NCBI RefSeq assembly: GCF_004364935.1
Contig: NZ_SOBT01000008.1
Coordinates: forward strand, 995,534 to 1,059,533
Direction of reading: 5' to 3'
DNA: 64,000 bases
From: Panacagrimonas perspica
GTDB lineage: Bacteria > Pseudomonadota > Gammaproteobacteria > Nevskiales > Nevskiaceae
The position numbers were made by a program, and so were the translations under genes. Shown one piece after another: positions 6,564-32,113 of the stretch. Positions within the stretch are counted from its first letter, which is position 1; each line of letters opens with the position of its first letter. The notes beneath the pieces were generated by a model. It worked only from the letters and a program-made list of their open reading frames with translations. It did no database searches and was not told the DNA's origin.

Positions 6564-6566
6564 GGC

Positions 6567-7384: not shown

Positions 7385-8061
7385 AGCTTGCGCCGCGCAC
7401 TGCGGTGTCGCTGTACGTCGCGCTGGCGATGCATGCCTTGCTGTTGCTGAGCCTGGCCCTGCGGCCGCCGTCGCAGAACCCGGTGGGGTCCGGTCTGGGA
7501 TTGAGCCTTCCGGGGGCAGGACTGGATGAGGCCGAGCGCCTGCTCGCGACAGCGCCTCCGATGGCGGGAACGGAAACGTCGACGCCGCGTGATGTCGTCC
7601 CGACGGCGAGGATCGTTGATTCCCTGGAATCCGAAGTCGCTGATGCGCCGGTTCGACGCAAGGCCCCGGTTCACCCGCCTGCAGCGACGAAGCGTCCCGA
7701 TTACGCCGAAGACGTCAAAGCGACTGCGCTCGACGAGAAGCGGACCCGTGCGTCTGCGCCGCTGATCGCGCAGGCCGGAGGCGGTGGCAGTGGAAATTCG
7801 TACTACGTGCGCCTGAGGACGCACCTCGCGGGCTTCCGGCGCGAACTGCCTGCCGGCTTGCCGCCGGGCAGTGCGCGTGTGCGTTTCCGAGTTTCGCCGG
7901 AGGGATGGATCAGCGAGCTGGAACTGGTGCAGAGCTCGGGTGTGCCGAGCCTGGATGCCGAAGCGCTGGACCTGTTCCGCCGTGCCGCGCCATTGCCGCC
8001 GCCGCCCGATGCACGTGAACTCAGATTGATCGTGCCCGTCTCGATCGACGGGCCGGGCTGA
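7381..8061 (+). CDS. TonB-like energy transducer
   Basis: 226 aa. The N-terminal signal anchor AVSLYVALAMHALLLLSLAL is followed by a periplasmic linker rich in Pro, Ala and Lys. The C-terminal TonB domain (about 140-226) contains YYVRLRTHLAGFRRELP, RVRFRVSPEGWISELELVQSSG and LDAEALDLFRRAAPLPPPP, the usual TonB-C pattern. The His in the anchor helix matches the residue TonB uses in contact with ExbB. Last gene of the exbB-exbD-exbD set; a REP-like palindrome follows at once. Confidence 0.88.
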   Translation: MKLAPRTAVSLYVALAMHALLLLSLALRPPSQNPVGSGLGLSLPGAGLDEAERLLATAPPMAGTETSTPRDVVPTARIVDSLESEVADAPVRRKAPVHPPAATKRPDYAEDVKATALDEKRTRASAPLIAQAGGGGSGNSYYVRLRTHLAGFRRELPAGLPPGSARVRFRVSPEGWISELELVQSSGVPSLDAEALDLFRRAAPLPPPPDARELRLIVPVSIDGPG

Positions 8062-8071
8062 GAGTCCGCCA

Positions 8072-17766: not shown

Positions 17767-18480
17767 CTAAACGCGTATCGGTGCCGGCTGTCGCGTCGGA
17801 AACACGTCCTCGGCCAGCCGTCTCAGCCCGATGCGAAAGTGCTCGAAGCGTTCGGCAAGACGCCGGAACACATCGCCCAGTCCGAACTCCTGTGCCTGCA
17901 CGCTACCGGCCGCACTGGCGTAATGGCTGCAGCCCATGCGCTTGTAGAACTCCAGCGAGACCGGCCTGCGCTTGAAGTCGCGGCGGTGCTCGACCCAGGG
18001 CGCGCAGATGCCGGACAGATAGAGCGCGTAGTTGCCGATGTGTGCGTTGACCAGGAAGCGGCGCTCCGGACCGGACTCGAGTCCTTCCCGGACCAGGTCC
18101 GCCAGGTATTCGTAACGCGCCGTGTCGTCGTGCTGCAGCCGATAGACGCGCTCGGTGCGCGAGAACAGTCCGAGCATGTTGGCCAGGTAATGGATGGCCT
18201 GGCGATCGAGGCGATCGCGTGGGCCGGGAATGGCCCGCCGCAGCATCACGTCGAAGAACAACTGCGGAGAGACGTCGAGGCATTGCGCGCGCTGGTCCAT
18301 CAGCGCCGCGTGCACGTAGTTGGATTCGAGGATGGACTCGAGCATCAACGGGTTCTCGTGCACCCGCTGCACCGCTTCGACCGGATCCACGCCAGCGACC
18401 GGAAAGTGCTCGAACAGGAAGAGCAGATCCTTCTGCTGGAAATGCTGCAAGCCCACTGCTGCGAAATCTGGCGACTGCAT
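17767..18480 (-). CDS. Hypothetical protein
   Basis: 237 aa from MQSPDFAAVGLQHF; a GAGG box 8 nt upstream supports this start, although the frame extends to 18519. Soluble and mixed helical, with many aromatic and His residues (NPLMLESILESNYVHAALMD, VNAHIGNYALYLSGI). No motif that I recognise. It is preceded on the same strand by DUF3429 after about 110 bp and followed directly by a REP-like palindrome that may end the transcript. Confidence 0.68.
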   Translation of the reverse strand: MQSPDFAAVGLQHFQQKDLLFLFEHFPVAGVDPVEAVQRVHENPLMLESILESNYVHAALMDQRAQCLDVSPQLFFDVMLRRAIPGPRDRLDRQAIHYLANMLGLFSRTERVYRLQHDDTARYEYLADLVREGLESGPERRFLVNAHIGNYALYLSGICAPWVEHRRDFKRRPVSLEFYKRMGCSHYASAAGSVQAQEFGLGDVFRRLAERFEHFRIGLRRLAEDVFPTRQPAPIRV

Positions 18481-18588
18481 GATCGACACCTCGCGAGAGA
18501 CCTGACTTGCTTCAAGCAAAGTCTGGGCCTGTTTCAGGTGAGATAGCCAGTCAGCACTCCCGCTACATCGCTGCCAATTCCCGATGCG

Positions 18589-19023
18589 CTACGCGGAAAT
18601 CGAGTAGCGCCAGCTCATCGCGATCAGCACGCCGACCGTCAGCGTCGCGCGCAACGAGAAATAACCGCCGACGGATCCGAGCGCGCGCTCACGCCAGAAG
18701 TCGGCGGCCAGTTGCAGCAGGAAGGTCACGGCGAGCACCGCCAGCGCCGGCCGCAGCGGCAGCGCGGTGGCAAACCACGTGAGCAGCATCAGCGCCATCG
18801 CGATCAGCAGTCCTGCCTTGCCGGCCGCGCCTTCGCAGGCGGGCAGCATGAAGCCCCACAGGGAACCGGCCATGAAGGCGGCGACCAGCGCGCAGTAGCT
18901 GAGCCACACCGTGTCCAGCCAGTCCGGCGTCGTGGCGGGTGACATCGAGAGCCACGCCGGACCCAGCAGGAAGGGCACCAGGCCGGCGTAGCCGAACAGC
19001 GAAACGATCGTAGGAAGGCGCAT
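18589..19023 (-). CDS. DUF3429 membrane protein
   Basis: 144 aa with four to five hydrophobic helices: LFGYAGLVPFLLGPAWLSM, WLSYCALVAAFMAGSLWGFML, AGLLIAMALMLLTWFATAL and LAVLAVTFLLQLAADFW. The SYCALVAAFMAGSLWG segment is typical of DUF3429. Expected in the inner membrane; function unknown. It starts 45 bp after the last gene of the vWA/ExbB cluster on the same strand, so it may be read through from that operon, but its link to it is unproven. Confidence 0.82.
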   Translation of the reverse strand: MRLPTIVSLFGYAGLVPFLLGPAWLSMSPATTPDWLDTVWLSYCALVAAFMAGSLWGFMLPACEGAAGKAGLLIAMALMLLTWFATALPLRPALAVLAVTFLLQLAADFWRERALGSVGGYFSLRATLTVGVLIAMSWRYSISA

Positions 19024-19068: not shown

Positions 19069-19746
19069 TCAGATCTTCGGCTTGGCCAGAGGCGCCGGCG
19101 GTGTCAGCAGCTCGCCGATCTGCCCGGCCACACCATCGCAGGCAGCAGCCTCGGTCCTGGCGATCAACGGAATCGGGATGATCAGCGCCGGCAGGTAGGA
19201 GGTGCCGCTCGCGTTGACGCTGACCTTGCCCACTGAGCTTCGCGTCTGCACGTCCCACACCGACACTTCGTACTTCGATTCCTTCTCCCACCAGCCGAAT
19301 CCGAGACACGCGGCTGCCGGCGGCAGGATGCCGCAACTCACGCTGCCACCGCCGTCGATCTTGTCGGTCTCGCCGTCGATCCAGACCATGAAGCGCACGC
19401 CGGTGTCGCGCACCCGTTGCGCGATGACCGGATCGTCGAGCAGCGCGGCGAGGGCGTCGGATGACATCGGCGCGGTACGCGGCTCCAGCCACGGGAACAT
19501 CGCGTCGACAAAAGATTGCTCCGCATATACCGGCAGCTTGCGGCCGGTCAGCGATTTGGAGACGCACTTGTTGAAGCTCTGCTCGGTTTCGCGATCGCCG
19601 CGATGCCGCCGTCCGAGGATCACGACGGACTCGCCTGCGCTCATCGTCACGCTGCGGCCGCTCTGGCGGATCTGCTCGACCTTGGACGTCACGCAGGCGC
19701 TCGCCAGCACGGCGGCGACGAAGAGCAAGACGCGCGACGCGCTCAT
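19069..19746 (-). CDS. Cluster gene 12: lipoprotein
   Basis: 225 aa. The signal peptide with lipobox ASRVLLFVAAVLASAC puts the lipidated Cys near residue 17. The mature protein has ESVVILGRRHRGDRETEQSFNKCVSKSL near its start and a Cys/Trp-rich middle (SCGILPPAAACLGFGWW). A beta-rich segment, KYEVSVWDVQTRSSVGKVSVNASGTSY, resembles CsgG/FlgO-like periplasmic domains, but this is weak. The start overlaps the preceding lipoprotein gene (ATGA). Last of the twelve co-directional genes of the vWA/ExbB cluster. Confidence 0.78.
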   Translation of the reverse strand: MSASRVLLFVAAVLASACVTSKVEQIRQSGRSVTMSAGESVVILGRRHRGDRETEQSFNKCVSKSLTGRKLPVYAEQSFVDAMFPWLEPRTAPMSSDALAALLDDPVIAQRVRDTGVRFMVWIDGETDKIDGGGSVSCGILPPAAACLGFGWWEKESKYEVSVWDVQTRSSVGKVSVNASGTSYLPALIIPIPLIARTEAAACDGVAGQIGELLTPPAPLAKPKI

Positions 19747-20438
19747 GGTGCCGCCGCCGAGGCCTGCGGTGGCGGTGGCGGCACCGGCGCGGCGAGTCGC
19801 GCACGAAACGCATTGCCGTCGCGAAAGATCAGCGCCATGCCGGCGGCGGCATCGCGCATGGCCTCGCGCACCGCGGCCGTCAGGCCCGAGTTCGTACCGC
19901 CGACCTTGGCGCCGCGCTGCTTGCCGTAGGCGGCCAGGTCCCAGGCCGTGATCTCCTGCCCCTGGGGTGTCAGCAGACGCAGGCGGTACTTGATCCAGGC
20001 CTCGTGGAATTGATCCTTCTCGGCCTTGGGGCTGGCGATCTGCACGTCCTGCACGATGGGCTGCAGCACCGCCTGCACGCCGGGCGCCACGCTCTGCGCA
20101 CCTGGCGCCTGCGTAACCGTGAGCAGCGTCGCGAACTGCGCGCTCAGGAACTCGCTGAAGATCGCGCGCGAAGCAGGTCCGACCGAGACATCCTGCTGGA
20201 CGCCGGGCGCGGGCTGGTCGTGATGGACGTAGCTGACGAACGCGTCGTCCATGTACAGGCCCATCGCGACGGGAATCTTGCGCAGGACCGGCTTCGGGAA
20301 TTCGTTCGAGGGCACGACCGGCTTGGCGGTGCATCCGCCCAGCAGGGCCAACGCCACGAGGCACGCGAGGGCGCGAACGCGACGGCGCCATGACGCCCGC
20401 GGGCCGCCTGTTCGCGCATGGATAGAAGCTCCCGCCAA
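19743..20438 (-). CDS. Cluster gene 11: lipoprotein
   Basis: 231 aa. After a basic leader comes ALACLVALALLGGC, a lipobox with the lipidated Cys near residue 36; a shorter start close to the hydrophobic stretch is possible. The mature domain (KPVLRKIPVAMGLYMDDAF ... DLAAYGKQRGAKVGG) ends with Pro-rich PPPPPQASAAAP. No named family. Translationally coupled to the next lipoprotein gene, which suggests that the two act together at the outer membrane. Confidence 0.78.
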   Translation of the reverse strand: MAGASIHARTGGPRASWRRRVRALACLVALALLGGCTAKPVVPSNEFPKPVLRKIPVAMGLYMDDAFVSYVHHDQPAPGVQQDVSVGPASRAIFSEFLSAQFATLLTVTQAPGAQSVAPGVQAVLQPIVQDVQIASPKAEKDQFHEAWIKYRLRLLTPQGQEITAWDLAAYGKQRGAKVGGTNSGLTAAVREAMRDAAAGMALIFRDGNAFRARLAAPVPPPPPQASAAAP

Positions 20439-20477
20439 GACCGCCTCCGCCCTGTGGGCGGCGTCGCGTGCTTCGAA

Positions 20478-21479
20478 TCAGCTGTTGCTGATGAGGCCCA
20501 CGAATGCGCCGCCATTCTCCCGGCACATGATACGCATCAGGTTCGCGAAGCGGATGCCGCTGGGCGTCACGCCACCGTTCAGATGCTGCGTGGGAAAGCC
20601 GATGGCGTGGATGCGGGCCAGAGGAACGCCGCTCGCATCCTTGGGATTGACGCGGCGGATGCGTTTGAGTGCCGCGGCCACCGATGCGCCGGTGAAGTCG
20701 TCGCCCATCACGTAGACGCTGATCTTCTTGTCGGGCGCGGCGAAGGTCTTGATCGCGGCCTCGATGCCCTCGACCGGACTGGAATCGGAGAACGCCTGCC
20801 AGTGGCGCATCGCCTCGAGCGTGGCCTTGCGGCGCGCAGGTGAATCCGGGATCCACTGGCCGCGATAGGAGCTGAACAAGTAACCGCCTTCGTCGCTCAG
20901 CACCTGGATGCCCTTCACGCGCGGATAGATGTCGAGGATCTCCGACATCGTCTTGATCATCGCGCTCCAGGCGAAGCGCTGCATCGAGCCCGAGGTGTCG
21001 ACGACGAACACGATGTACTCGCTGTCCACCGGGATGCCACCAACCGGCGCATCGTTGCGCTGCTTCACGCCCTGCGACATCAGGCGGCGCATCTCCTCGG
21101 TGAGCGTCTGCTTGGCGACGGTCAGCTGCGTCTCGATGGTGGCGAGCGTCTTGGTGTCGAGCTGGGCGTCGGTGGTCTTGTTCTCGAGCGAGTTGGAGGT
21201 GGTGCGCAAGCGGATCAGTTCGCGTTCGGCCTCGCGCTGGCTGTCGCGGCTCGAGGCGAGCGCTTCTTCGAGTCCCTTGAGCTCACCCGCGGTCTTCTCG
21301 CCCAGCAGTCGAAGTTCCTCGGACTGGCCCTTGCCCGGTTGAGTGACCGGCTCCGAGATCGGAGGCGGCTTGGACTGGCTCAGCACCAGCAGCAGGATCA
21401 TCGCGCCGAAGCCGCAGCAGATGCAGTCGATGAACGACATCGAGAACACCTGCACCTCGTGTCGGCGCTTGATGGCCAT
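20478..21479 (-). CDS. Cluster gene 10: membrane-anchored von Willebrand A protein
   Basis: 333 aa. Residues 1-13 are basic and cytoplasmic, followed by SFIDCICCGFGAMILLLVL: an Asp (18) at the membrane entry, then one transmembrane helix. A Glu/Gln/Lys-rich coiled coil spans about 50-140. The vWA domain runs from about 155 with the MIDAS motif DTSGS at 161-165 and later VYVMGDDFTGAS. vWA domains bind metal and protein ligands. Paralogous to the next gene upstream, 3 bp away. Topology puts the vWA domain in the periplasm. Confidence 0.85.
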   Translation of the reverse strand: MAIKRRHEVQVFSMSFIDCICCGFGAMILLLVLSQSKPPPISEPVTQPGKGQSEELRLLGEKTAGELKGLEEALASSRDSQREAERELIRLRTTSNSLENKTTDAQLDTKTLATIETQLTVAKQTLTEEMRRLMSQGVKQRNDAPVGGIPVDSEYIVFVVDTSGSMQRFAWSAMIKTMSEILDIYPRVKGIQVLSDEGGYLFSSYRGQWIPDSPARRKATLEAMRHWQAFSDSSPVEGIEAAIKTFAAPDKKISVYVMGDDFTGASVAAALKRIRRVNPKDASGVPLARIHAIGFPTQHLNGGVTPSGIRFANLMRIMCRENGGAFVGLISNS

Positions 21480-21482
21480 CGA

Positions 21483-22562
21483 TCAGGGCCAGTCGGCCGA
21501 AGGATTGAAGTACGACCCGCCGGTGTTGCGCGCGAGTTCCCAGTACGCGGCTGCCGCCTTGGGATCGCCTTCCATCGGCATCAGCACGACGCTGATGGGC
21601 AGATTGTTGGGCAGCCGCGCCGTCGCCGAGTTGAAGTAGCGCACGCGATCCTTGCCGCTGGCCAGCCCACTCGCCCCACCACGATCGGTCGTCGGCAGAC
21701 CGTCGGTGACGAGATACACATGATCAGGCGCGGGGTTGAGCGACGAGATCACGGCGAAGGCATTGGCCAGACTGGTACCGCCACCCGGAGGCGTCATGCG
21801 GATCGCCTTCACGGCCGCGGCCAGCTTGTCGCCGCGATTGGGCAGCCACTTGCCCGCCGAATCCGCCAGCGCGGGCTTGGCTGTGTCGTTGAACCCGTAG
21901 ATCTGGAACTGCCCGCTCGCCGGCATCTGCGCGGCGATCCACTCCACGGCTGCGACGCTGCGGCGCCACTTGGTCGATGCGGTCTTGGTCGCGTCGTCCA
22001 TGTTGCGGCGCCGGATCGCTTCGACGATCGTCTCGGCCAGCATGCTCGCCGAGGTGTCGACGAGGATCAGGATGCGATTGCCCTCGACGGACAGCCCCGA
22101 CAGGTACTCGCGTCGCGCCTCGCCGGAGGTCTGCAGCACCGCATCCTTGCCGGCGTCCGCCGCAGCCGCGCGCATTTCCTTGACCTTGGATTCGAGCACC
22201 TTGAGGTCGTTCTCGAGAATCAGCACGCGCGCGCGGCCGTCTTCCTTGCCCGGATTCTGTTGGAGCATCGCGGAGCGCGCGTCTTCGATCTTCTTGCTCA
22301 GGCGCTCGGCTTCCTTCGACGCGAGCTGCTGCGCCTTCTCCGAATCCTCGAGCGCGGCGCGCAGCACCAGCAGCCGATGGCGATCGTCGAGCAGCTTGTC
22401 CTCTTCGCCGCTGACCTGCGCCTGCGTCACGCTGGCCGCGGCGTCCGGCACCGGGGCCGAGTGCTTCATCAGCATGAAGACCAGCACGGTGGCGCCGAAG
22501 CCACAGGAAATGCAGTCCAGGAACGACATGTTGAAGATCTGCAGTTCCTGGCGACGCTTCAC
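21483..22562 (-). CDS. Cluster gene 9: membrane-anchored von Willebrand A protein
   Basis: 359 aa, same plan as cluster gene 10. The basic start MKRRQELQIF is followed by NMSFLDCISCGFGATVLVFML with Asp16 before one membrane helix, then a coiled coil (about 52-140), then a vWA domain with MIDAS DTSAS at 169-173 and a later YLVTDGLPT segment carrying the conserved Thr-Asp. The shared SF[IL]DCI-x-CGFGA motif is nearly identical in both proteins and resembles the ExbD/TolR Asp-membrane segment. Start overlaps the actin-fold gene (ATGA). Confidence 0.85.
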   Translation of the reverse strand: MKRRQELQIFNMSFLDCISCGFGATVLVFMLMKHSAPVPDAAASVTQAQVSGEEDKLLDDRHRLLVLRAALEDSEKAQQLASKEAERLSKKIEDARSAMLQQNPGKEDGRARVLILENDLKVLESKVKEMRAAAADAGKDAVLQTSGEARREYLSGLSVEGNRILILVDTSASMLAETIVEAIRRRNMDDATKTASTKWRRSVAAVEWIAAQMPASGQFQIYGFNDTAKPALADSAGKWLPNRGDKLAAAVKAIRMTPPGGGTSLANAFAVISSLNPAPDHVYLVTDGLPTTDRGGASGLASGKDRVRYFNSATARLPNNLPISVVLMPMEGDPKAAAAYWELARNTGGSYFNPSADWP

Positions 22563-23839
22563 GGCATGACCTCGATCAGGCGCAGCACCACGCCGGAAAA
22601 GTCGATGCGATCACCCAGGCCCACACGCACCGGCAGCCGCACGGGCTTGCCGTTGAGCAGCGGGCCCGCCTCCTGCGAGCCATCGAGCCAGAGACGACCT
22701 TCGATCCTGCGCAGGCTGCCCGGCAGGCCCGGGCGCAGGCGTTCCAGCGCCAGCGCAGGATCGGCGTCGTTGCGGGGCAGGGCGACCGCGTAGTCGCCGA
22801 TCAGCACATGTGTCGGACCCACCGCTTCGTGTGCCGAATCGGCGCCACGCGGAATTCCCGGCAGGCGCGTGACGTAGGCCAGACCCGCGCCGGGGACCGC
22901 GATGCGTACCGAATGCGCGCGGGCGCCACGTGCCGGCGCGAGCGCGTCCAGGCGAAGCGCCGCGATACCGGTGACATGCTCGATGTGCTCGACCAGTCCG
23001 GGCACTGCGGCGGCGCGCGCGCTGAGCATCAGGGTCGCTGGCCGCGGACGACCGTGCTGGTCGATCGCGGCCGCGATGTCCTCGAAGGGTTCCTGCAGGC
23101 TCTTCACGAGATCGTCGCGCGACACGCTGGCGCGGTGCGTGCGGGCGCCCGAGGCCAGCTCCAGCACCGCGCTCGGCGCACCGCCGAGCAGGTTCAGCCA
23201 GGCCGGCAGCGCGTCGAACATCGTCTGCTCGGTGCCGGCGGTGTGCAGCGGATCGAAGCGCGTCTGCTGGACGAAGGCGAGGGCCGCCACGCGCGAGAGT
23301 GCATCCCAGACTTTCGTCAGGCCGGGTTTCGAGATCTCTTCGACACGCACGCGCGACAGCGACGCGCCGCCTTCGATCACGGTCAGCACGAAGCGGTGCA
23401 GCTCGACGTCGAGGTGCAGGCAGGTCGCGTCGGTCTCGACCTGGGACGCGGCGGCGACTGCGGTGTCGACCAGTCCTTCGGCCTTCAGGCCGCTGGCGTC
23501 GACCAGGCCCAGCAGGATGCTCAGCTGCTCGCGCGTCAGGCTGCCCGGCACGGCGAGCATCAGCGGCAGGCCGCCGGCAGCGTCGCGCAGCGATTGCAGT
23601 TGTGCGTACGCAAGGTCGGCGTGCGAGCGGGCACCGGCGACCGGCGCCGGCAGCATCGTTTCGAGCTGGTACCAGTAGCGGTTGAACGTGCGGCGCGGAT
23701 CCAGGCGGCTGCGCGCGCGCGCGATGGCGCCGACCTGCAGCGTCTTGCCATCGAGTGCGGCGAAGCCGGGACTTTCGGCGAGGACCTGCGTGCCGTTGCT
23801 CAGCAGCAGGCCGGTGTCGTTGATCTCGAGAACGTTCAT
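22559..23839 (-). CDS. Cluster gene 8: actin/Hsp70-fold (ASKHA-like) protein
   Basis: 426 aa, cytoplasmic. N-terminal LEINDTGLLLSNG would be the first phosphate loop. LMLAVPGSLTREQLSILL followed by ASGLKAEGLVDTAVAAA copies the Hsp70/PilM pattern (ITVPA ... AGL ... ..EP.AAA). CLHLDVELHRFVLTVIEGG resembles the second phosphate loop, and PATLMLSARAAAVPGLVEHI the adenosine motif. The last 80 residues (HVLIGDYAVALP ... LNGKPVRLPVRVGLGDRIDFSG) look like an FHA-type beta sandwich. An ATP-dependent scaffold at the membrane machine is inferred. Overlaps the downstream vWA gene. Confidence 0.68.
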   Translation of the reverse strand: MNVLEINDTGLLLSNGTQVLAESPGFAALDGKTLQVGAIARARSRLDPRRTFNRYWYQLETMLPAPVAGARSHADLAYAQLQSLRDAAGGLPLMLAVPGSLTREQLSILLGLVDASGLKAEGLVDTAVAAASQVETDATCLHLDVELHRFVLTVIEGGASLSRVRVEEISKPGLTKVWDALSRVAALAFVQQTRFDPLHTAGTEQTMFDALPAWLNLLGGAPSAVLELASGARTHRASVSRDDLVKSLQEPFEDIAAAIDQHGRPRPATLMLSARAAAVPGLVEHIEHVTGIAALRLDALAPARGARAHSVRIAVPGAGLAYVTRLPGIPRGADSAHEAVGPTHVLIGDYAVALPRNDADPALALERLRPGLPGSLRRIEGRLWLDGSQEAGPLLNGKPVRLPVRVGLGDRIDFSGVVLRLIEVMP

Positions 23840-23864
23840 GAGCGCGGCACGTGAGCAGCGGGGA

Positions 23865-24692
23865 TCAGGCCGGCGCCTGCAGGTTCTGGATCAGCTTGCG
23901 CTCGCAATCCTGGTGCGCGTCCAGCACCAGGCGCTCCTGCACGAGTTGCAACTGGTAGAGCAGGAAGACCGTGATCAGGCTCAGCAGCAGCGCGACCAGC
24001 GTGGAGTTGAACGCGACGCCCAGCGCCTCGGTGACGCCGGTCATGTCGCCTTGCAGCACCGCCTGCGCGTGGCCCAGCGAGTCGCCGATACCGCGCACGG
24101 TGCCGACGAAGCCGATCGAGGGAATCGCCCAGCAGATGTAGCGGACGATCGCGAGTTCGGCGTCGAGCCGATCGTTGGCCGACTCCGCGACCCGTCGCGC
24201 TTCATCCGAAGCGTCCTGCACGCTGCGCGTGATGCGGAAACGGTTGAGCGCGTTCTGGTAGAGCCGCGGCAGCAGACGATCACGACTATCCAGCGGCATC
24301 GATTCGATGGCGCGCGAATGGGCGCGCGCGTCCTCCGGCAGGATGCTCTCGCCCTCGGCCACGCTGACCATGTCAATGTCGAACAGCCGTCGTTCGGCGC
24401 CGACATTGCGGAACTTGTAGCCCATGATCGCGAAGGCCCACAGCGCGAAGATGATCGCGAGTTCCTGCTCGGGTCCCTTGACGATGACGAAGATGTTGGG
24501 CTGCATCGCCACGTACTTGCCGGTGCCCGCCGCGGCCTCGACCTTCTGCGCCAGGTCGTCCAGCACCGCACGCGCCTGCGGCCGGATCACCGCGGTGTAG
24601 ATCGCGTGGACGACGACGGCGGAAATCACCAGCGCGAAGACCTGGTAGACGAACTCGACGGGAAATTGCTTGCGCATGGTCTGGGTGTTCAA
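23865..24692 (-). CDS. Cluster gene 7: MotA/TolQ/ExbB proton channel family protein
   Basis: 275 aa with four membrane helices: about 12-36 (FVYQVFALVISAVVVHAI), 74-92 (LAIIFALWAFAIMGYKF), 180-203 (RYICWAIPSIGFVGTVRGIG, the ExbB signature) and 230-255 (ALGVAFNSTLVALLLSLITVFLLY, with the conserved polar Ser-Thr). A cytoplasmic domain sits between helices 2 and 3. No separate ExbD/TolR gene is in the cluster; the two vWA proteins are the only candidates for the Asp-bearing partner. Overlaps the small exported-protein gene by ATGA. Confidence 0.88.
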   Translation of the reverse strand: MNTQTMRKQFPVEFVYQVFALVISAVVVHAIYTAVIRPQARAVLDDLAQKVEAAAGTGKYVAMQPNIFVIVKGPEQELAIIFALWAFAIMGYKFRNVGAERRLFDIDMVSVAEGESILPEDARAHSRAIESMPLDSRDRLLPRLYQNALNRFRITRSVQDASDEARRVAESANDRLDAELAIVRYICWAIPSIGFVGTVRGIGDSLGHAQAVLQGDMTGVTEALGVAFNSTLVALLLSLITVFLLYQLQLVQERLVLDAHQDCERKLIQNLQAPA

Positions 24693-24931
24693 AGATCAGC
24701 AGGGAAATCCACTTCCTGGTCCGGCGAGACTTCTTCCGAAGGCCTGAACTCGCGGGTCGATGCGTTGGCCTTCGGAGCGGGTCGGGCGGCCGGCTCCGCC
24801 GGGGCAGCAGCTTCCTCCTTCTTCGGCGCCGCGTCCTGCTTCGCGGGGGCCTCGGCCGGAGGCTGCGCGAACAGCGGCAACGCCATCGTCGCTGCGGAGA
24901 AGACCACCAGCCATCGCGATCGGGATGTCAT
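24689..24931 (-). CDS. Cluster gene 6: small exported Ala/Pro/Glu-rich protein
   Basis: 80 aa. The signal peptide WLVVFSAATMALPLFAQ is followed by a disordered Ala/Pro/Lys/Glu tail ending SPDQEVDFPADL. No domain. It is overlapped by the ExbB-type gene (ATGA) and lies 9 bp after the PEGA-FGE gene, so it belongs to the operon. Could be a periplasmic linker. Confidence 0.65.
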   Translation of the reverse strand: MTSRSRWLVVFSAATMALPLFAQPPAEAPAKQDAAPKKEEAAAPAEPAARPAPKANASTREFRPSEEVSPDQEVDFPADL

Positions 24932-24940
24932 CGGCTTGGG

Positions 24941-27007
24941 CTACTCGGCGTAGCGCGCGACGCGAAAGCCCAGATCGGGCCGCTCGTCGTGGCCCATGTC
25001 GCGGAAGGCCAGCCGCAGTTCGACCAGCCGCCCGTGCAGCCAGCTCGATCCGCGGATCACGTGGTCCGTTCCAGTCGCGGCACCGAACGGATCGACGGCC
25101 TCCGGCGGATTGATCGGCAACGTGGCGTCGTAGAGATCGTGCATCCACTCGGCGACGTTGCCGCCGAGGTCGAACAGGCCGAGCGCATTGGCGGGGTAGG
25201 TGGCGACCGGACTGGCGGCGGCGTAGCCGTCCTCGTAGCCGTCGAGCACCTGCGGCGCGACCGACTCCGCGGTCGGGTCGGCGAAGTTGCCGGACTTCGG
25301 GGGCGGCGGGAATCCGCTGCCCCAGGAATAGCGCTGCGCGCTGTTGCCACCGGCGTGGCGTGCGGCCCATTCCCACTCGGCTTCGCTGGGCAAGCGGTAT
25401 CCGGTGGTCAGCGGTTGCACGAGCTGCATCGTGGCGCCGTCCTCGCGGTACGCTGCCGGCAGCCCATCCTGTTGCGAGAGCCAGTTGCAGTAGCGTGCCG
25501 CCTCCATCCAGGTCACGCGCGCCACCGGCTGGCGCTCGTTGTCGAGCGTCTCGCGGCGGATGATTCCCGAGGAGTGCGCGGCAGCGAAACGGCGGAACTG
25601 CTGGTTGGTGATCTCGGTGGTCGACAGGTAGTACGCGCGCGACAATTTCACAGGTCGCTGCGCTTCATTGGACTGGCGACCCTGCTCGCCGCGCGGCGTG
25701 CCCATCACGTACGAGCCGGGCTGCACGAGCACCAGGTTGGGGCCACCCTTGCTGGTGAGCTTCGCGGGATTGCGCGCCGCACGCGCCTCGGCCTCGCTGT
25801 TGAGCCGGATCTCCACGCGCTGCTCCAGACCCGGCCGCGGCGTCACGCTGCCGGACCACGGCGCGTATCCGGATTTGGTGGCTTCGATCGTGTGCGCGAC
25901 CGTCACCAGATCGAGTCGCGTCGTGCCGGCTGCAACCGGACGACCATCGATCTTCACGGCGGCATCCGCAGGCTGCACGTCCAGCGCGATCGAACCCAGG
26001 ATCGGTTCGAGCGCGAGATTCAGGCTCTGGCTGTCGTCGGCGCTGACTTCGACGCTGCGTTCGGCCGCCTTGTGTCCCGGCGCCGAGAGCTGGATCAGGT
26101 GCGTCTTGCCGGGCGCGAGCCGCAGCTCGATCGGCGTCTGCCCGCGGAAGTCCTTGCCGACGCGCACCGATGCGCCGCTCGGCGTGCTGCTGAGCCGCAC
26201 GACCCCCTCGGCGGGCAGCAGCCTGGCCTCGGCCAGGTTCAGCGGCTGGTTCGCGGTGACGGTGATCGAGTCCCGCCACGTCGCGTAACCGGCCAGCTGA
26301 AGGCTGATGGCGTGGACGCCCGCGCCGAGCTCCAGCGTCTGCGGCGTGAGTCCCTGCGGCTGGCCATCGACCAGGATGGCCGCGCCGGACGGTTTCGATC
26401 GCAGCGAGACCGGCGCCCAGCCGGGCACGAGATCGATCTTCAGCGTCTGCGCCACGCCGCCGCCTTCGATCTTCAGTTCGGCCTGATGCGCCTGGTAGCG
26501 CGGCGCTCGCAGCAGGAGCTGGTGCGTGCCGGCTGCCAGTTCCAGCGCAGGCATCGGCGTGGATCCGCGCGGATTGCCGTCGATGAAGACTTCTGCCGCG
26601 GGCTCGGTGATCAGGGTCAGCGAACCGGGAAGACGCGTCATCTCGAAGCGCAGCTTCTGCTGCGGCTCGTCGCCGATCACGACATCGGCGGCCAGATCCT
26701 CGTATCCGTCGGCCTTCGCGCGCAGCCTGGCTTCGCCCGGCAGCACCAGATAACCGGAACCCATGGAGATGCCGACGCCGCCATCGAGGCTCAGGCGGGC
26801 GCCGGCCGGCACGATCTCGAACTGCACCGAGCGCGCGAAGAAGAAGAACGCACCGACGAGCGCGGCGAACAACAACAGCCCGCCGAGCAGGACCGGCAAC
26901 AGGGGAAAGCCATTGCGGCTCCGCGCCGGAGCCGCGCTCCCGGGCGGGCGATACGGGACTGCCGCGATGCGGCCGTCTGCGGCATCACGACGCTGCGGAT
27001 CGCTCAC
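24941..27007 (-). CDS. Cluster gene 5: PEGA-repeat and formylglycine-generating-enzyme-domain membrane protein
   Basis: 688 aa from GTG, which overlaps the stop of the gene upstream (GTGA); the frame also offers an ATG 15 bp earlier. A short cytoplasmic tail is followed by a membrane helix at 35-58. Four clear PEGA repeats lie near 128-192, 199-262, 268-333 and 338-402 (for example PSGAAILVDGQPQGLTP), with a degenerate one at 61-124. The C-terminal FGE/SUMF1 domain (about 424-687) shows MGTPRGEQ, TEITNQQFRRFA, VTWMEAARYCNWLS, YRLPSEAEWEWAAR, GNVAEWMHD and VIRGSSW. The FGE domain is probably a periplasmic binding domain; the catalytic Cys pair of true FGE is not evident. Confidence 0.88.
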   Translation of the reverse strand: MSDPQRRDAADGRIAAVPYRPPGSAAPARSRNGFPLLPVLLGGLLLFAALVGAFFFFARSVQFEIVPAGARLSLDGGVGISMGSGYLVLPGEARLRAKADGYEDLAADVVIGDEPQQKLRFEMTRLPGSLTLITEPAAEVFIDGNPRGSTPMPALELAAGTHQLLLRAPRYQAHQAELKIEGGGVAQTLKIDLVPGWAPVSLRSKPSGAAILVDGQPQGLTPQTLELGAGVHAISLQLAGYATWRDSITVTANQPLNLAEARLLPAEGVVRLSSTPSGASVRVGKDFRGQTPIELRLAPGKTHLIQLSAPGHKAAERSVEVSADDSQSLNLALEPILGSIALDVQPADAAVKIDGRPVAAGTTRLDLVTVAHTIEATKSGYAPWSGSVTPRPGLEQRVEIRLNSEAEARAARNPAKLTSKGGPNLVLVQPGSYVMGTPRGEQGRQSNEAQRPVKLSRAYYLSTTEITNQQFRRFAAAHSSGIIRRETLDNERQPVARVTWMEAARYCNWLSQQDGLPAAYREDGATMQLVQPLTTGYRLPSEAEWEWAARHAGGNSAQRYSWGSGFPPPPKSGNFADPTAESVAPQVLDGYEDGYAAASPVATYPANALGLFDLGGNVAEWMHDLYDATLPINPPEAVDPFGAATGTDHVIRGSSWLHGRLVELRLAFRDMGHDERPDLGFRVARYAE

Positions 27008-28566
27008 AGCGCCTCCTCGCAACGAACCTCGACGCTCACGTTCGCCGCGCCGGAGGCGACGTCGAACTCGTGCCGCACGTCGCGATATCCGGCGCGACTG
27101 CCGATCGCGACGTAATGGCCGGGCTTGAGCTGCAGCTTGTGCGTCGTGAAGCGCCCCAACGATCCGACCTTGTAGAGCGTGACCTCGGTCTTGCCGTCGG
27201 ACTGGATCTGCACGTCCACCGGGGTTGCGGCGCCGGCGATGGCCCGCTCGGCTGCAGCGATCTGTGCCCCCAGCCGCGGGCCTGGCGAGGCGATGGCGCG
27301 CGCCTGCGCAAGGCTGCGCTCGGCGTCGGCCGCGATGCTCGCGGTCGACAGGCGTTCGGGACGATCGACGATGTCCTGCAGACGCTGCGACAACCCGGCG
27401 CGCGGTTCGGCCTGGACCAGGCCATCGCGAGCAAACGCCACCGTGCTGTCGATCTGCAGCGCGGCGCGATAACTCGCGATCGCCGCCGTCCAGTCCTCGG
27501 CGTTCGCCTGCGCGGACGCTTCCTTCTCCAGCGCGGCGAGTTTCTGGCTGCGACGCGCATCGGCCAGTCGCGCGCTGGCCTGCTGCACGCCGGCGTCGTT
27601 GGCGCGCAGCGCCCGCGCCCGGGCCAGTCGTTTCTCGGCGAGCTCGTAGTTGCCGCGATCGAGCGCGTCCAACGTCTCACCGAGCGCGCGCCGGAACTCC
27701 GCGTCGCCGGCCTGTGCATCGAGACGGGCGAGGGCGTCGCGCGCGCTCTGGGTGTCGGCGTCGAGCGCGAGCGCCTGTTTCCAGGCCGCCCTGGCGCCGA
27801 CGACATCACCGGCCTGTTCGAGCCGACGTGCCGTATCGACCTGCGCACGAACGGCGTCGAGGCTGGCGACGCGCTCGAGCCCGCGCGCGGCGGCCTTGTT
27901 GTCCGGCTCGAACATCCGGGCACGTTCGTAGGCCTGCTGTGCCGCGACCTTTTCCGAGGCTTCGAGCGCGGACGCGCCGGCCGTGAGCGCGGCAGAAAGC
28001 TGCGGTGGAATCTGCGCAAGCAAGGCCGCGGTGCTCGAAGCCGCGGCTTGGTACGAGGTCCGCGAGGCCGGGAAATCGCGACCGGCAAAAGCGCTGGCGC
28101 CGGCCGCCGCCTGCGATTGCGCCTGCGCCAGCGGCGAGGCCGCCCAGGTCTGCGCGCCGCGGGATTGCAGGACGGCGACCTGTTCTTCGTACTGGTTTCG
28201 GGCCGTCTGTGCCGCGGCGCGGGCGTCGAGCAGCGCCGCATCGTCGAAGACCTGCGAGGTCGACGCGGCCGTTGGCGGCGTCGGCGGAGCGGCTGCGGCT
28301 TCCTCCGTTGGGGGCGCGGTGGCAGCAGGCTCTGCTGGCGCGGGCGTCTGCGTCGTGCCCGACACGAGTTTCGGCAGCACGAGGAACACGAGCGCCGCGA
28401 TCACGGCCAGTGCGATCGCGGCGATCCAGAACGAGGTGGCGGAAATGCGCGCCGCGGCATCGGCTGAAACGGCGGTGCGCGTGCCCGGCGTCTCCAGTCC
28501 GGCCGGCCGGCGCGCAACGATGCGCTCGAAATCCGCCTGCGGCGGTGCCTCCGATTCGGGCCTCAT
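27004..28566 (-). CDS. Cluster gene 4: TPR-like/PEGA membrane protein
   Basis: 520 aa from MRPESEAPPQADFERI; the longer frame to 28707 adds unconserved sequence. Cytoplasmic N-terminus, membrane helix at about 46-66, Pro/Ala linker, then repeated helical units (AAWKQALALDADTQSARDALARL, EKRLARARALRANDAGVQQA, AIASYRAALQIDSTVAFAR) typical of TPR arrays, and a C-terminal PEGA-like beta domain from about 435 (VDVQIQSDGKTEVTLYKVG ... LKPGHYVAIGSRAGYRDV). Shares the PEGA theme with the next gene, which it overlaps. Confidence 0.78.
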   Translation of the reverse strand: MRPESEAPPQADFERIVARRPAGLETPGTRTAVSADAAARISATSFWIAAIALAVIAALVFLVLPKLVSGTTQTPAPAEPAATAPPTEEAAAAPPTPPTAASTSQVFDDAALLDARAAAQTARNQYEEQVAVLQSRGAQTWAASPLAQAQSQAAAGASAFAGRDFPASRTSYQAAASSTAALLAQIPPQLSAALTAGASALEASEKVAAQQAYERARMFEPDNKAAARGLERVASLDAVRAQVDTARRLEQAGDVVGARAAWKQALALDADTQSARDALARLDAQAGDAEFRRALGETLDALDRGNYELAEKRLARARALRANDAGVQQASARLADARRSQKLAALEKEASAQANAEDWTAAIASYRAALQIDSTVAFARDGLVQAEPRAGLSQRLQDIVDRPERLSTASIAADAERSLAQARAIASPGPRLGAQIAAAERAIAGAATPVDVQIQSDGKTEVTLYKVGSLGRFTTHKLQLKPGHYVAIGSRAGYRDVRHEFDVASGAANVSVEVRCEEAL

Positions 28567-28655
28567 GTCGCGGACGCGGATGCTGCGTCGCAAGACCGCG
28601 AAAGAGAAGGAGGGGGCATCGCGCGAAACGGGCGAACGGATTCCGGGCGCATGGC

Positions 28656-29846
28656 TCAGGGCGTTCCGACCTCGGCCGAGTAGCGCTCGTGCAGCAGCTT
28701 GCGCCACTGGTCGTACTGTTCCTTCGCGGAGCCGGTCAACGTCACCGTCTTGCCTTCGAGCTCGACGACGCGCGGCGCGACATCGGCGTTGATCGAGGCG
28801 TTGAGTTCCTTCAGCGAGTCGGCGTGCACCTTGGCTTCCTGCCCCTTCTGCATGCCGCTGGCGAAGATGCCGACACCCGCGACGACGCCGACCTGGCCGA
28901 GGACGCTGCCGGCGGCGCTATCGGACGTAATCACCGCGGCGACGCCGGCGATGGCTGCGGCCGCGCCCGCGACCTTGCGCCACAGGGCCTGGCGTTCGAG
29001 TTCGTTCAGGGCGACCGTTTCGGTGTAGCTCGCACGCCGCCATTCCTGGTAGGCCGGCTGCATGTTCTGCCGGAACACCGCGTAGTGACCGTCGAGCGTG
29101 TCGACGAGAACGTCGTCGCGGGCACGCACGCTGGCGATGCGCTTGACGATCGGATCGTTCTCCGGCGGCAGGCGCTGGATCGTCGTGCGGCCGGACTTGT
29201 CGGTCTTCAGATAGCCCTCGAAGCGCGCGGGCGCCAGATCGGCGGCGAATTTCAGATCCGCGACGCGGCGCACTTCCAGCATCTTGGCGGCGTCGAGCTT
29301 CTTGCGTTCCTTGAGCAGGTCGTTGGCGACGCGGCTGTAGAGATCCTGGAACGGGTCGGTGGTGTTGGCCGACTTCTCCGTGTACGAGATCTCGGCCGCC
29401 ACTTCCTCGTAATCACGATCGAGCCATTCGCGACCCGTCGTGTCCTTCGCATTGATGTGCAGCTTCAGCTTCTCGCCATCCGAGTGCAGGATCTTGCCGC
29501 CGATGATCAGCATCGAACCGGGCGGCGCCTCCGGCAACACGCGAACCGTGCCCCAGTAGCCGGTGCCGTCGAGCGCCTGTCGCAGCACCTGCGGAAGGTA
29601 GTTCGCCTCGGCCTGGCGCACCGCGGGCAGGACGCCCTGGTCCTGCTGTTCCTTGATCTTCTCCGGGATGCCCGGATCGAAGGCGACGATCGTGACGTCG
29701 AGCAACTGTTCGAGCGGCAGCTCCTGATTGGCCTGCGTCGCCTTGACCTCGTTGACGCGCTTGACCTGCGTCGACACGCAGCCGGCTGCGGTCAGCGCGA
29801 ACAGGCCAGTGACGAAGAAGCGGGCGAGGAGGTTCGGGGTCGTCAT
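28656..29846 (-). CDS. Cluster gene 3: lipoprotein with glycine-rich hydrophobic segment
   Basis: 396 aa. The lipobox FALTAAGC gives a lipidated Cys near residue 23. Middle domain: LLDVTIVAFDPGIPEKIKEQ ... TVRVLPEAPPGSMLIIGGKI. Toward the C-terminus a Gly/Ala-rich hydrophobic stretch (VAGAAAAIAGVAAVITSD, then GQVGVVAGVGIFASGMQ) resembles a glycine zipper that might insert in a membrane. No known family recognised. It lies 89 bp before the TPR/PEGA gene and 9 bp after the Ser-rich lipoprotein gene. Confidence 0.78.
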   Translation of the reverse strand: MTTPNLLARFFVTGLFALTAAGCVSTQVKRVNEVKATQANQELPLEQLLDVTIVAFDPGIPEKIKEQQDQGVLPAVRQAEANYLPQVLRQALDGTGYWGTVRVLPEAPPGSMLIIGGKILHSDGEKLKLHINAKDTTGREWLDRDYEEVAAEISYTEKSANTTDPFQDLYSRVANDLLKERKKLDAAKMLEVRRVADLKFAADLAPARFEGYLKTDKSGRTTIQRLPPENDPIVKRIASVRARDDVLVDTLDGHYAVFRQNMQPAYQEWRRASYTETVALNELERQALWRKVAGAAAAIAGVAAVITSDSAAGSVLGQVGVVAGVGIFASGMQKGQEAKVHADSLKELNASINADVAPRVVELEGKTVTLTGSAKEQYDQWRKLLHERYSAEVGTP

Positions 29847-29855
29847 CGTTGCGGG

Positions 29856-30734
29856 TTACTTGCGCGCCTTGTACTTGCGGTATTCCTGCCAGAGCCGCTC
29901 GCGCAGTTCCGGATCCTTTTCGCTCTCCGCCGCCTCGCGCAACTGGCGCGCGACGACATCGTCGTCGACACCGGTCGGCGTGCCTTCGGGTGGGGGGAAT
30001 TTCGGGCCGCTGCTGCTGGGCTGGCCGGCGCCACCGCCGGGGCCTCCGGTCGTTTCGCCTGCCGCGCCGGACTGGCCACCGGCGACTTCCTGCGGCGTAC
30101 CGCTGCCGCCGTCGGCGCCGGTACCGGCGCCTTCGCTGGACGAACTGCCCGTGCCGCGGCCGTTGCCGGCCGCCGCCGTGCGCTGCTTCTCGATCTCGGA
30201 CTGTTCCTTCGATAGGCGTTTGTCGAACTCGCCCAGCGAACCGTAGAACTGCTCGTCCCAGGCGGCGTTCTTCTCGGCGTCGGTCATGCCGCCGCCGGCT
30301 CCTGCATCGCCCGTCTTGCCGGCAGCCGCGCCGCTACCGGCAGGCGCAGATCCGCCGGCAGCGCCTGCCTTGGTGCCGGCGGGCGAACCGGCCGCGCCAC
30401 TGCTGCCCGCCGTTTTTTGTCCACTCGCCGTGCTGCCCGCGCTCGAGGGCTTCTGCGTTCCGGAACTGGACGGAGAGCTGCTGCCGGAGCTGGAGCTTTG
30501 CGGCCCTTGCGAGGACGACGATCCCTGGGACGGAGAGCCCTTCTGCGAAGACGAGGGCTTCGACGGTGCTGACGACGGCGACGAGGGGGAAGAAGGCGAG
30601 CCCGATGTCGAGGGCGGCGGGGGCGGCGCCGGCGTGGAGGGCGACGCCGATTTCGTCGCGCAGCCCGCGGACAGCAGAAGCGCAGCCCCGAGGACGAGGG
30701 CGGTGCCCGCCTGGCGGACATCGTCGATATTCAT
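29856..30734 (-). CDS. Cluster gene 2: low-complexity Ser/Gly/Pro-rich lipoprotein
   Basis: 292 aa from MNIDDVRQAGTALVL; the ATG at 30734 is preferred because the signal peptide and lipobox LLLSAGC follow directly. The mature N-terminal half is almost only Ser, Pro, Gly, Ala, Thr (about 120 residues), then AEKNAAWDEQFYGSLGEFDKRLSKEQSEIEKQR, another Gly/Ser stretch, and a structured tail DDDVVARQLREAAESEKDPELRERLWQEYRKYK. The layout suggests a flexible tether on the outer membrane ending in a helical interaction domain. Confidence 0.75.
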   Translation of the reverse strand: MNIDDVRQAGTALVLGAALLLSAGCATKSASPSTPAPPPPPSTSGSPSSPSSPSSAPSKPSSSQKGSPSQGSSSSQGPQSSSSGSSSPSSSGTQKPSSAGSTASGQKTAGSSGAAGSPAGTKAGAAGGSAPAGSGAAAGKTGDAGAGGGMTDAEKNAAWDEQFYGSLGEFDKRLSKEQSEIEKQRTAAAGNGRGTGSSSSEGAGTGADGGSGTPQEVAGGQSGAAGETTGGPGGGAGQPSSSGPKFPPPEGTPTGVDDDVVARQLREAAESEKDPELRERLWQEYRKYKARK

Positions 30735-30796
30735 GAAAGGCATGCCTCGATTGTGGCGACGTGACTTGGACGTGCGCGCGTGATGCGGAGTTTCCT

Positions 30797-32113
30797 TCAT
30801 GGACCTGAACCGCCACGGACTGCCAGTCGATAGCGTACCGCGGTGCTCGCGACCGGCTTGCCGTTCGAGATCTGTGGCCGCAGGCGGGCCTGCCGCAGCG
30901 CGGCGACCAGGCTGCTGCCGACCGTGGCAGGGAGCGTCGCCGGTTGCGATTCGACGATGCGCACGTCGCGCGTGTCGCCGTCCGTTTCCACGCCGAATTC
31001 CGCCAGCACGAACCCTGCGCCTTCCGGCAGCGGCGCCGGCCGCGGTACGCGAAAGCTGATGAAGGAGGGCTGCGCGAACGGCGGCTCCCGACCCTCCGGC
31101 GCCAGCACGGCGGCCGCCTTCGACCAGGCGCGCAGGGCCTGGTCGCGCCGGCCGATCAGGAAGTGGACGTCGCCGATGCGGACCAGCGTCGCGGCGCGCT
31201 CGATCGCGGTACCGTCGGTGCGCGCCGCGGCGAGCCGTTCGGCCTGGGCCAGCGCGGCACCGGGCTGGGGGATGCCCGGAGTCGGCAGTTCGTCGGGGTC
31301 ACGGCGGCGCTCGCTGCCGCTGAGCGCGATCTCGATCAGCGGCTCGATCAGGCGAGGGTCGTTCTTGTCCTTCTGCTGAAGAATGGCCATGGCCAGGCCG
31401 TGCAGGTGGACGGATTGCGCGTACTGCCCCGAGCCGCGGAACCACCGGCCGCCGGAGACGAACAGCTTGGCCAGATCCGGCGATTCGGGACCGAACACAT
31501 GCTGGCCGACGTCCATGCGCCGCATCTGGACCTGGTCCGCGTCCTCGGTCTTGCCATTGGCGCGCAGGGCCAGCGCAAGCGCGTGCAGCACGTCGAGCTG
31601 CTCCGCGCTGTACAGGCCCTGGTTCATGCGATGGAGCTGCAACGCATTGGCCAGGGCATCGGAGGCCGCGCGGTAATTGCCGGCGTAGAGGCTTGCGTAC
31701 CCCATGCCGTACCAGGCGTCGAACAGCCGGCCATCGCGCGGGCCGCCGGTGGCCTCGATCAGGTCGATGGCGGACTGGTAGTCGCGCAAGGCGCCCTGCA
31801 CGTCGCCGGCGCGCTGTTTCGCGGTTGCCAGATTCACCAACGGCGCACTCAGCCGCGAATCACGCGGACCGTAGGCCGTGCTGCTCGCCGCTGCGGCCTT
31901 GGCGGCCAGCGTGCTGCCCGCCGCGCTGCCGTCCTCGGCGGAGATGGCGTCGATCGCGGCGGCAGTGGGGGCGTCGGCCGGCCGGAACGGATCCTCCTGC
32001 AAGCGCGGGGCGAACGCCGCCTCGCCCTGGCTCGTGGGTTCGGGCAGTTCGAAGGCGGCCAGGGTCGCGGCCGTTGCCAGCAACAGCGGGAGCGCGAGCA
32101 GGAATCTCGTCAT
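30797..32113 (-). CDS. Cluster gene 1: exported TPR protein with TonB-like C-terminal domain
   Basis: 438 aa from MTRFLLALPLLLATAATLAA, a signal peptide; the frame extends 33 bp further without support. Tetratricopeptide-like helices run through about 90-330 (LVNLATAKQRAGDVQGALRDYQSA, YAGNYRAASDALANALQLH, RIGDVHFLIGRRDQALRAW). The last 90 residues match TonB-C domains (GAGFVLAEFGVETDGDTRDVRIVE ... SSLVAALRQARLRP). First gene of the minus-strand cluster. TonB-C domains contact outer-membrane partners, so this may link the motor to the outer membrane. Confidence 0.78.
   Translation of the reverse strand: MTRFLLALPLLLATAATLAAFELPEPTSQGEAAFAPRLQEDPFRPADAPTAAAIDAISAEDGSAAGSTLAAKAAAASSTAYGPRDSRLSAPLVNLATAKQRAGDVQGALRDYQSAIDLIEATGGPRDGRLFDAWYGMGYASLYAGNYRAASDALANALQLHRMNQGLYSAEQLDVLHALALALRANGKTEDADQVQMRRMDVGQHVFGPESPDLAKLFVSGGRWFRGSGQYAQSVHLHGLAMAILQQKDKNDPRLIEPLIEIALSGSERRRDPDELPTPGIPQPGAALAQAERLAAARTDGTAIERAATLVRIGDVHFLIGRRDQALRAWSKAAAVLAPEGREPPFAQPSFISFRVPRPAPLPEGAGFVLAEFGVETDGDTRDVRIVESQPATLPATVGSSLVAALRQARLRPQISNGKPVASTAVRYRLAVRGGSGP

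Follow-up and report, generated by a model that had tools for sequence, protein, structure and literature searches.

What do the twelve genes on the minus strand of a 64,000-nucleotide stretch of the Panacagrimonas perspica genome (contig NZ_SOBT01000008.1, positions 995,534 to 1,059,533; hereafter the window) encode, and has such a set been described before? Numbered g1 to g12 along the direction of transcription, they run from window position 32113 down to 19069, with intergenic gaps of 89 bp at most for the chosen starts. All twelve lie where the initial annotation, which was made from the sequence of the window, had placed a continuous run. The order of this operon is kept across many aquatic bacteria, and we lean somewhat towards reading it as a machine driven by the proton-motive force and spanning the cell envelope, Tol-like in its working but not a member of Tol-Pal. 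What we observed is the gene set, its order and co-occurrence, the predicted folds and the conserved residues. The genes are as follows.

g1, 30797..32113, minus strand: exported TPR protein with a weak TonB_C-like C-terminus; variable cluster member
g2, 29856..30743, minus strand: Ser/Gly-rich exported protein; lipobox in the window copy; conserved C-terminal helix (DDDVVARQLREAA...LWxEYRKYK)
g3, 28656..29846, minus strand: lipoprotein whose N-terminal domain is TolB-N/PelC/CsgG/FlgT-like and is followed by a long hairpin of helices
g4, 27004..28566, minus strand: inner-membrane protein with one transmembrane helix, a periplasmic portion resembling TPR and a C-terminus of conserved beta structure (topology by eye)
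g5, 24941..27007, minus strand: cytoplasmic tail, transmembrane helix, PEGA stalk of four domains and a head that is FGE-like but has no catalytic cysteine pair
g6, 24689..24931, minus strand: small exported protein with a low-complexity linker; its acidic tail at the C-terminus is conserved and ends in FP-x-D-[IL]
g7, 23865..24677, minus strand: proton channel of the MotA/TolQ/ExbB family, diverged subfamily; TTG start
g8, 22559..23839, minus strand: cytoplasmic protein of Hsp70/actin fold with an FHA-like C-terminal domain
g9, 21483..22562, minus strand: vWA protein with an N-terminal transpore-like helix (Asp16) and an intact metal-ion (MIDAS) motif
g10, 20478..21479, minus strand: second vWA protein with a transpore-like helix (Asp18) and the metal-site motif DxSxS...S...D
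g11, 19743..20438, minus strand: lipoprotein, lipobox ALLGGC; TTG start uncertain
g12, 19069..19746, minus strand: lipoprotein, lipobox LASAC

The many ATGA/GTGA overlaps first reported were an overstatement: three are clear (g4/g5, GTGA, with GAGGAGG ahead of it; g8/g9, GTGA; g11/g12, ATGA), and those of g1/g2 and g6/g7 exist only if alternative starts are used. The start codon of g2 is uncertain (30734, 30743 or 30800). Pfam found no family over its cut-off in g2, g3, g4, g6, g8, g11 or g12, and neither NCBIfam (ten of the twelve proteins, g2 and g11 left out) nor PADLOC (ten of the twelve, g2 and g6 left out) named a system.

Conservation and co-occurrence of the genes

Three genome sets were used: P. 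perspica and 60 relatives (61 genomes), 398 genomes drawn over the phylum and 274 genomes of the class. The vWA protein g9 had a match at E ≤ 0.001 in 11 of the 61 genomes and at E < 1e-90 in eight, the P. perspica genome included; in the phylum set it was matched at E ≤ 1e-20 in 15 genomes, again including P. perspica, of which 12 belong to one other family (f45). A search of a named genome collection with the g10 alignment gave at least 242 relatives, and the best 80 of these, together with 13 loci from further genomes, made up a set of 93 loci. Carriers among the Gammaproteobacteria include Halieaceae, Microbulbifer, Bowmanella, Woeseiaceae and Porticoccaceae, and carriers outside that class include Thermodesulfobacteriota (Desulfobacterota), Kiritimatiellota, Acidobacteriota and Myxococcota. 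The genus Bowmanella (Alteromonadaceae) is among the loci as L102; the named loci hold no Idiomarina record.

Gene order could be followed in the 60 loci with at least 9.3 kb upstream of g10. In 52 of them all seven of g2, g3, g4, g5, g7, g9 and g10 occur collinearly on a single strand; within these 52, g8 was found in 44, g6 in 47 and g11 and g12 together in 33. The conserved core is about seven genes, and g1, g6, g8, g11 and g12 are variable. Four of the non-collinear loci (L064, L075, L120 and L124) are without g2 only, with g3 running from the locus edge, while in L121 g7 is displaced and in L060 g2 to g5 lie on the opposite strand. The profile of g1 found a homologue in 32 of the 93 loci, six of them downstream on the opposite strand (L053, L088, L091, L120, L124 and L132; also L160) and not at the head of the cluster.

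Of the 274 class genomes, 18 have g10, 19 have g3 and 11 have g8. Both of the first two are present in 17 genomes, where chance alone would give about 1.3 (18 x 19 / 274); in 12 of the 17 they lie on one contig within 10 kb. Every one of the 11 genomes with g8 also has g10. The assembly of G553 is fragmented (560 contigs), with the channel gene on a separate contig. The suggestion that the genes form one conserved system is upheld by these searches for co-occurrence and synteny, since the set does co-occur; the opposite outcome, that the genes never co-occur elsewhere, did not come true. A remnant is seen in the single-contig genome G634, which carries (at L157:6373-9174) only a g3 broken in two pieces and a g4 in three, with no match to the channel, g8 or g10. 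This looks like decay of the whole system, and loss of everything but fragments is what would be expected if the parts were useless alone.

Some loci and neighbours differ from this pattern. Two loci, from Kiritimatiellae and Verrucomicrobia, are possibly diverged variants: in L059 only g10 and g9, and in L131 only g10, were recognised by the profiles used. Of the 93 loci, 31 have a gene of one family at the cluster end (30 downstream and one inside, at a median distance of 7 bp; for example L046:4472-6028, minus strand). It is an M48 metallopeptidase by Pfam, based on one representative, and does not follow the cluster in the window; it is probably a thirteenth member that the window lacks. 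A mobile element was also considered and rejected: viral contigs and plasmid records gave no relative of g10, and phage records no match to the channel g7.

The predicted motor core and its candidate partners

The presence of an ExbB-family channel is supported by Pfam, which matches g7 with MotA_ExbB (PF01618) at 41.5 bits (cut-off 22.9). It belongs to a diverged subfamily. Among the 12 matches to MotA_ExbB in the P. perspica genome, which also has 13 ExbD matches, g7 is the second weakest. A search of PDB sequences with its profile returned nothing at E 0.1. Two Thr residues, 198 and 231 when counted from the TTG start, are invariant in all 80 aligned rows. The vWA assignments of g9 and g10 are below or near the Pfam threshold (26.9 for g9, just under the cut-off of 27, and a weak 17.5 for g10), and in both proteins the metal-site (MIDAS) residues, DxSxS followed by T or S and then D, are conserved. 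The N-terminus of each is a membrane helix, SFLDxxSCGFGAxxLLF, resembling those of ExbD and MotB. Its transpore Asp is present in 94 of 94 rows of g10 and in all 84 rows of g9 that have the position (eight are gaps). The initial annotation had taken g9 and g10 for two periplasmic vWA proteins; the vWA identity stands, but the proteins are not merely periplasmic, as each has an Asp-bearing transmembrane helix that had been missed. Rather than separate periplasmic parts, the two probably form the motor's axle.

This arrangement has a published counterpart. Fig. 4c,d of PMC12204202 (Mol Biol Evol 2025) presents a predicted TolQ-like channel with a heterologous pair of vWA proteins bearing Asp helices, for which the section concerned gives no phenotype. 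In the model described there the Asp helix is inserted in the channel pentamer with the Asp facing a ring of Thr, and TolR and an SHLS motif are both absent. In the present families the SHLS motif was found in none of 91 g9 and none of 93 g10 homologues (0/184). Likewise, ExbD (PF02472) was not found inside the cluster in any of eight genomes, though all eight carry it elsewhere; in three of them the nearest ExbD on the same contig is about 7 to 12 kb from the cluster.

Among the other parts, g5 is the best defined by profile. Pfam finds four PEGA domains (154 bits) and an FGE-sulfatase domain (147.9 bits), which bears out its description as a PEGA-FGE membrane protein; PEGA had also been assigned to g4, for which there is no Pfam match. 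FGE enzymes have two active-site cysteines near the C-terminus. The corresponding stretch of g5 (from RGSSW to the end) is without Cys in 70 of 72 rows, and L062 and L078 have one each. Because the catalytic cysteine pair is missing, the head is most likely a binding domain and not an enzyme, as judged from these alignments. The best NCBIfam model for the window copy is GldK (TIGR03525), at 112.2 bits against a curated cut-off of 350, and this model matches all 25 aligned g5 homologues. Kinship with GldK and the type IX system was nevertheless dropped: the PvdO model likewise matches 25 of 25, and in a PDB search with the g5 profile true FGE enzymes (112 bits) score above PorK/GldK (97 bits), so that the GldK match reflects a shared fold.

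The actin fold proposed for g8 was borne out by the predicted model (pLDDT, a model confidence score, 91.4), which has the nucleotide-binding fold of Hsp70 proteins: DnaK is matched with a Z score of 29.5 and a root-mean-square deviation of 3.3 over 315 residues, in a comparison covering residues 1-317. A glycine-rich phosphate loop is absent from the g8 sequence, read by eye. The FHA-like tail also proposed for it is detected by Pfam in three of 23 aligned homologues (best E 1.4e-13) but not in the window copy; the FHA model TagH of type VI secretion matches two of the 23 (best E 5.1e-7). The presence of g8 appears to go with a feature of g5. Of 67 loci with a complete g5, 57 have g8, and 53 of these carry the motif IxPxxFxP in the cytoplasmic tail of g5; none of the 10 without g8 does. 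The four exceptions with g8 are L094, which was read in the wrong frame, and L054, L099 and L124, which are without the pattern. The FHA-like domain of g8 is found at the g5 N-terminus in seven of the 10 loci without g8 and in eight of the 57 with it. Taken from alignments, the association of g8 with the g5 tail is suggestive.

Of the exported proteins, g1 has a clear TPR region (TPR_12, 59.3 bits), whereas its proposed TonB_C domain is below the Pfam cut-off (21.9 against 24.6 bits). Four lipoproteins had been proposed. When the lipobox was scored by regular expression across homologues, it was found in 48 of 65 for g3, 48 of 49 for g11 and 39 of 47 for g12, which supports these three. It was found in only 7 of 59 for g2, so a lipoprotein is doubtful as a trait of that family, although the window copy has a lipobox.

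The AlphaFold2 model of g3 has a pLDDT of 80.8. Its top Foldseek match, and the only one with E below 0.001, is TolB/Pal (4r40; E 8.4e-4). By fold comparison the N-terminal domain resembles FlgT (Z 8.6), PelC (Z 8.0), CsgG (Z 7.0-7.4) and TolB (Z 7.2); beyond it lie long helices, of which one has 76 residues. The full structural ranking was led by long-helix proteins (AhlB, Z 10), which we treated as a common arrangement and set aside, and Pfam found nothing consistent in 23 g3 homologues. The small protein g6 consists of a signal peptide, a variable linker and the tail [FY]xPSExIxxDxxVxFPxD[IL], in which P and the last D are invariant in 38 aligned rows (of 64 available). When six genomes were searched for this tail, five gave a single strong match, located at g6, and the sixth, G085 (family f45), gave none; as it is matched only at g6 it is not a general tail, and a role as a genome-wide sorting signal was rejected.

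Downstream of the cluster, the minus strand of the window carries an MgtE_N-like gene (16222-17424; just under the cut-off), a gene for a protein without a family (17767-18519) and a DUF3429 gene (18589-19023), and the same three follow the cluster in L022, a locus of the same genus. A conventional exbB-exbD-exbD-tonB-like operon is located at 5940-8062 on the plus strand, 11 kb from the cluster.

A proposed machine and its rivals

In the machine that we favour, a pentamer of g7 would sit in the inner membrane around a g9/g10 heterodimer with the Asp helices as its axle (5:2, as in MotAB, ExbBD and TolQR). Proton flow would turn or shift the axle and so move both periplasmic vWA heads directly, with no need of ExbD/TolR or TonB/TolA. 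Through their metal sites the heads would engage partners from the operon, most likely the FGE-like g5 head and the acidic tail at the g6 C-terminus. They would act on g4 too, and force would pass through g4 and g5 to the outer-membrane lipoproteins g3, g11 and g12. The Hsp70-like g8 would bind the g5 tail and probably gate assembly. The most likely job of the whole would be a Tol-like holding, moving or releasing of outer-membrane lipoproteins that keeps the envelope coupled. The axle step draws on the conserved residues and on the published model (PMC12204202, in the section cited above); the later steps, and with them stoichiometry, proton use, contacts between parts and function, we infer. 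More tentatively, and as a possibility to which we give clearly less credence, the operon might represent a separate class of machine beside Mot, Tol, Ton, Gld/Por, Agl and Zorya. In such a class the vWA heterodimer would be both axle and periplasmic effector, the metal sites would act as a clutch, the g6 tail and the g5 head would alternate on the vWA heads with the motor engaged or released, and g8 on the g5 tail would be the switch.

Several points weigh against the proposed machine. L060, L098 and L131 are without several core genes at the expected place (L098 is without g2 to g5, and L131 shows g10 only), and in G662 (L159) the cluster is without g3 and a channel of the g7 subfamily is on another contig. 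None of the 12 proteins has, by Pfam, a peptidoglycan-binding domain or an outer-membrane barrel that would mark the load or the anchor. The likeness of g3 is to a widespread small fold, with Z scores of 7-8.6 near the level of a common arrangement and a Foldseek TM score of 0.20. As for g8 and the g5 tail, the pattern was widened after a first look (which had given 53 of 61 loci with g8 and, through a misassignment, one of 14 lacking it), and only about three independent changes of g8 occur on the tree, too few for a statistical test. The contact suggested between FGE-like and vWA heads is argued from precedent only. TagR, the protein that provides this precedent, is FGE-like. In the regulation of type VI secretion PpkA possesses a vWA domain, which is extracellular, and a C-terminal domain with which the periplasmic TagR interacts; TagQ is an outer-membrane lipoprotein and the cytoplasmic Fha is the target, according to passages of PMC3224232, PMC6657622 and PMC10482370.

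That same precedent raises an alternative that we consider unlikely but the least so of four, a sensor of envelope damage. Such a sensor would be a signalling relay like TagQ-TagR-PpkA-Fha of defensive type VI secretion, with the channel supplying energy or sensing the proton-motive force. Similar types of part occupy the same compartments in the two systems, as far as the passages cited for type VI go, and two of the 23 g8 homologues match TagH (best E 5.1e-7). Pfam finds no kinase or phosphatase family in the 12 proteins, though, and the vWA proteins carry the Asp axle helix in place of a kinase domain. Ranked after the sensor, and likewise improbable, is a secretion or surface-assembly apparatus in which the motor energises export through a ring of lipoproteins, as in type IX secretion (GldL/M with the FGE-like GldK) or in curli and Pel export (CsgG, PelC). 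The g3 N-terminal domain, with its likeness to CsgG and PelC, would fit, as would GldK as best NCBIfam model of g5 (112 bits; 25 of 25 homologues), were it not that this score is far below the 350-bit cut-off, that PvdO also matches 25 of 25 and that FGE enzymes outscore PorK/GldK. In addition, Pfam gives none of the 12 proteins a domain for a barrel, cargo or sorting.

A motor for surface gliding or for moving adhesins has a slighter chance again. PMC12204202 suggests, in the part concerned, a gliding role for its first family of vWA transducers, and the g5 head recalls GldK/GldJ; against this, no adhesin or barrel family was found in the 12 proteins and no motility gene among the recurrent neighbours, judged by eye with one neighbour family annotated. 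We think it very improbable that the operon is an anti-phage system like Zorya. The ExbB-type channel, a patchy distribution (the eight of 61 genomes at E < 1e-90, own included) and a weak PADLOC match to ZorA (E 0.0015) would speak for it. The only other PADLOC match in the ten proteins scanned is a marginal Cmr4 (E 0.0072) in g9, however, no nuclease family occurs in the 12 proteins, and the failure to find g10 relatives in viral contigs and plasmids, or the channel in phage records, also counts against it.

Relation to described systems

The closest described relative is the TPH-vWA/TolQ family of PMC12204202. The cluster shares with it a TolQ-like channel beside vWA genes (in the core order of 52 of 60 loci) and a heterologous vWA pair with an Asp helix, no SHLS and no adjacent TolR/ExbD, and that family, too, is reported there from Proteobacteria and Verrucomicrobia. 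The comparison with that paper, which used Idiomarina proteins, was made by these features. On this family the section concerned goes no further than the motor with its pair of vWA proteins, a TPR gene being mentioned for the other vWA family; it contains no PEGA-FGE protein, acidic-tail protein, Hsp70/FHA protein, TolB-N-like domain or further lipoproteins, and the word PEGA does not appear in the main text.

With Tol-Pal the cluster has in common a MotA/TolQ/ExbB channel, a TPR protein, lipoproteins and a TolB-N-like domain, but no TolR, TolA, TolB propeller or Pal (OmpA-like) domain was found in it (a TolR/ExbD partner was sought in the clusters of eight genomes and an OmpA-like domain with Pfam in the 12 proteins). 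From Ton it differs in having no ExbD in the cluster and a TonB_C of g1 under the cut-off. The type IX/gliding motor (GldLM) shares with the proposed machine the idea of a 5:2 motor, and GldLM with GldK also resembles the cluster in an FGE-like periplasmic protein and lipoproteins. Here, in contrast, the channel is of the MotA/ExbB family, the axle is a vWA pair and the FGE score is far below the GldK cut-off; beyond a low-scoring GldJ, no other Gld/Por model of NCBIfam matched in the ten proteins scanned. TagQRST-PpkA-Fha has an outer-membrane lipoprotein, a periplasmic partner, a vWA and an FHA domain in matching compartments, whereas the present cluster is without kinase or phosphatase and has a proton channel and a PEGA stalk. 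Zorya is similar in its ExbB-type channel and different in that neither a ZorB match nor a cytoplasmic effector was found here.

The initial annotation had set the cluster apart from Tol-Pal, Ton, Mot and Zorya, and in the features tested this holds for Tol-Pal, Ton and Zorya. Its statement that no described system has this set needs to be narrowed, as the motor core was predicted in 2025 (PMC12204202, Fig. 4c,d), while the rest of the set was not found described. No match of the full cluster to a named, characterised system was found in open-licence literature, preprints excluded. The word vWA does not occur in the main text of a stator survey (PMC12505986, mBio 2025) or of a review of Ton and Tol (PMC12905483, 2026). 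Built on a motor core already predicted, the machine proposed here would run on protons and cross the envelope; its axle is unusual, and we did not find its set of partners described.

Few machines that run on protons and link the inner membrane with the outer one are known; they matter for motility, nutrient uptake, cell division, secretion and phage defence. As the operon gives the published vWA-TolQ motor a defined set of partners, its role becomes testable in culturable marine bacteria, with the two Asp residues, the two metal sites, the conserved C-terminal tail and the tail motif that accompanies g8 as concrete points of attack.

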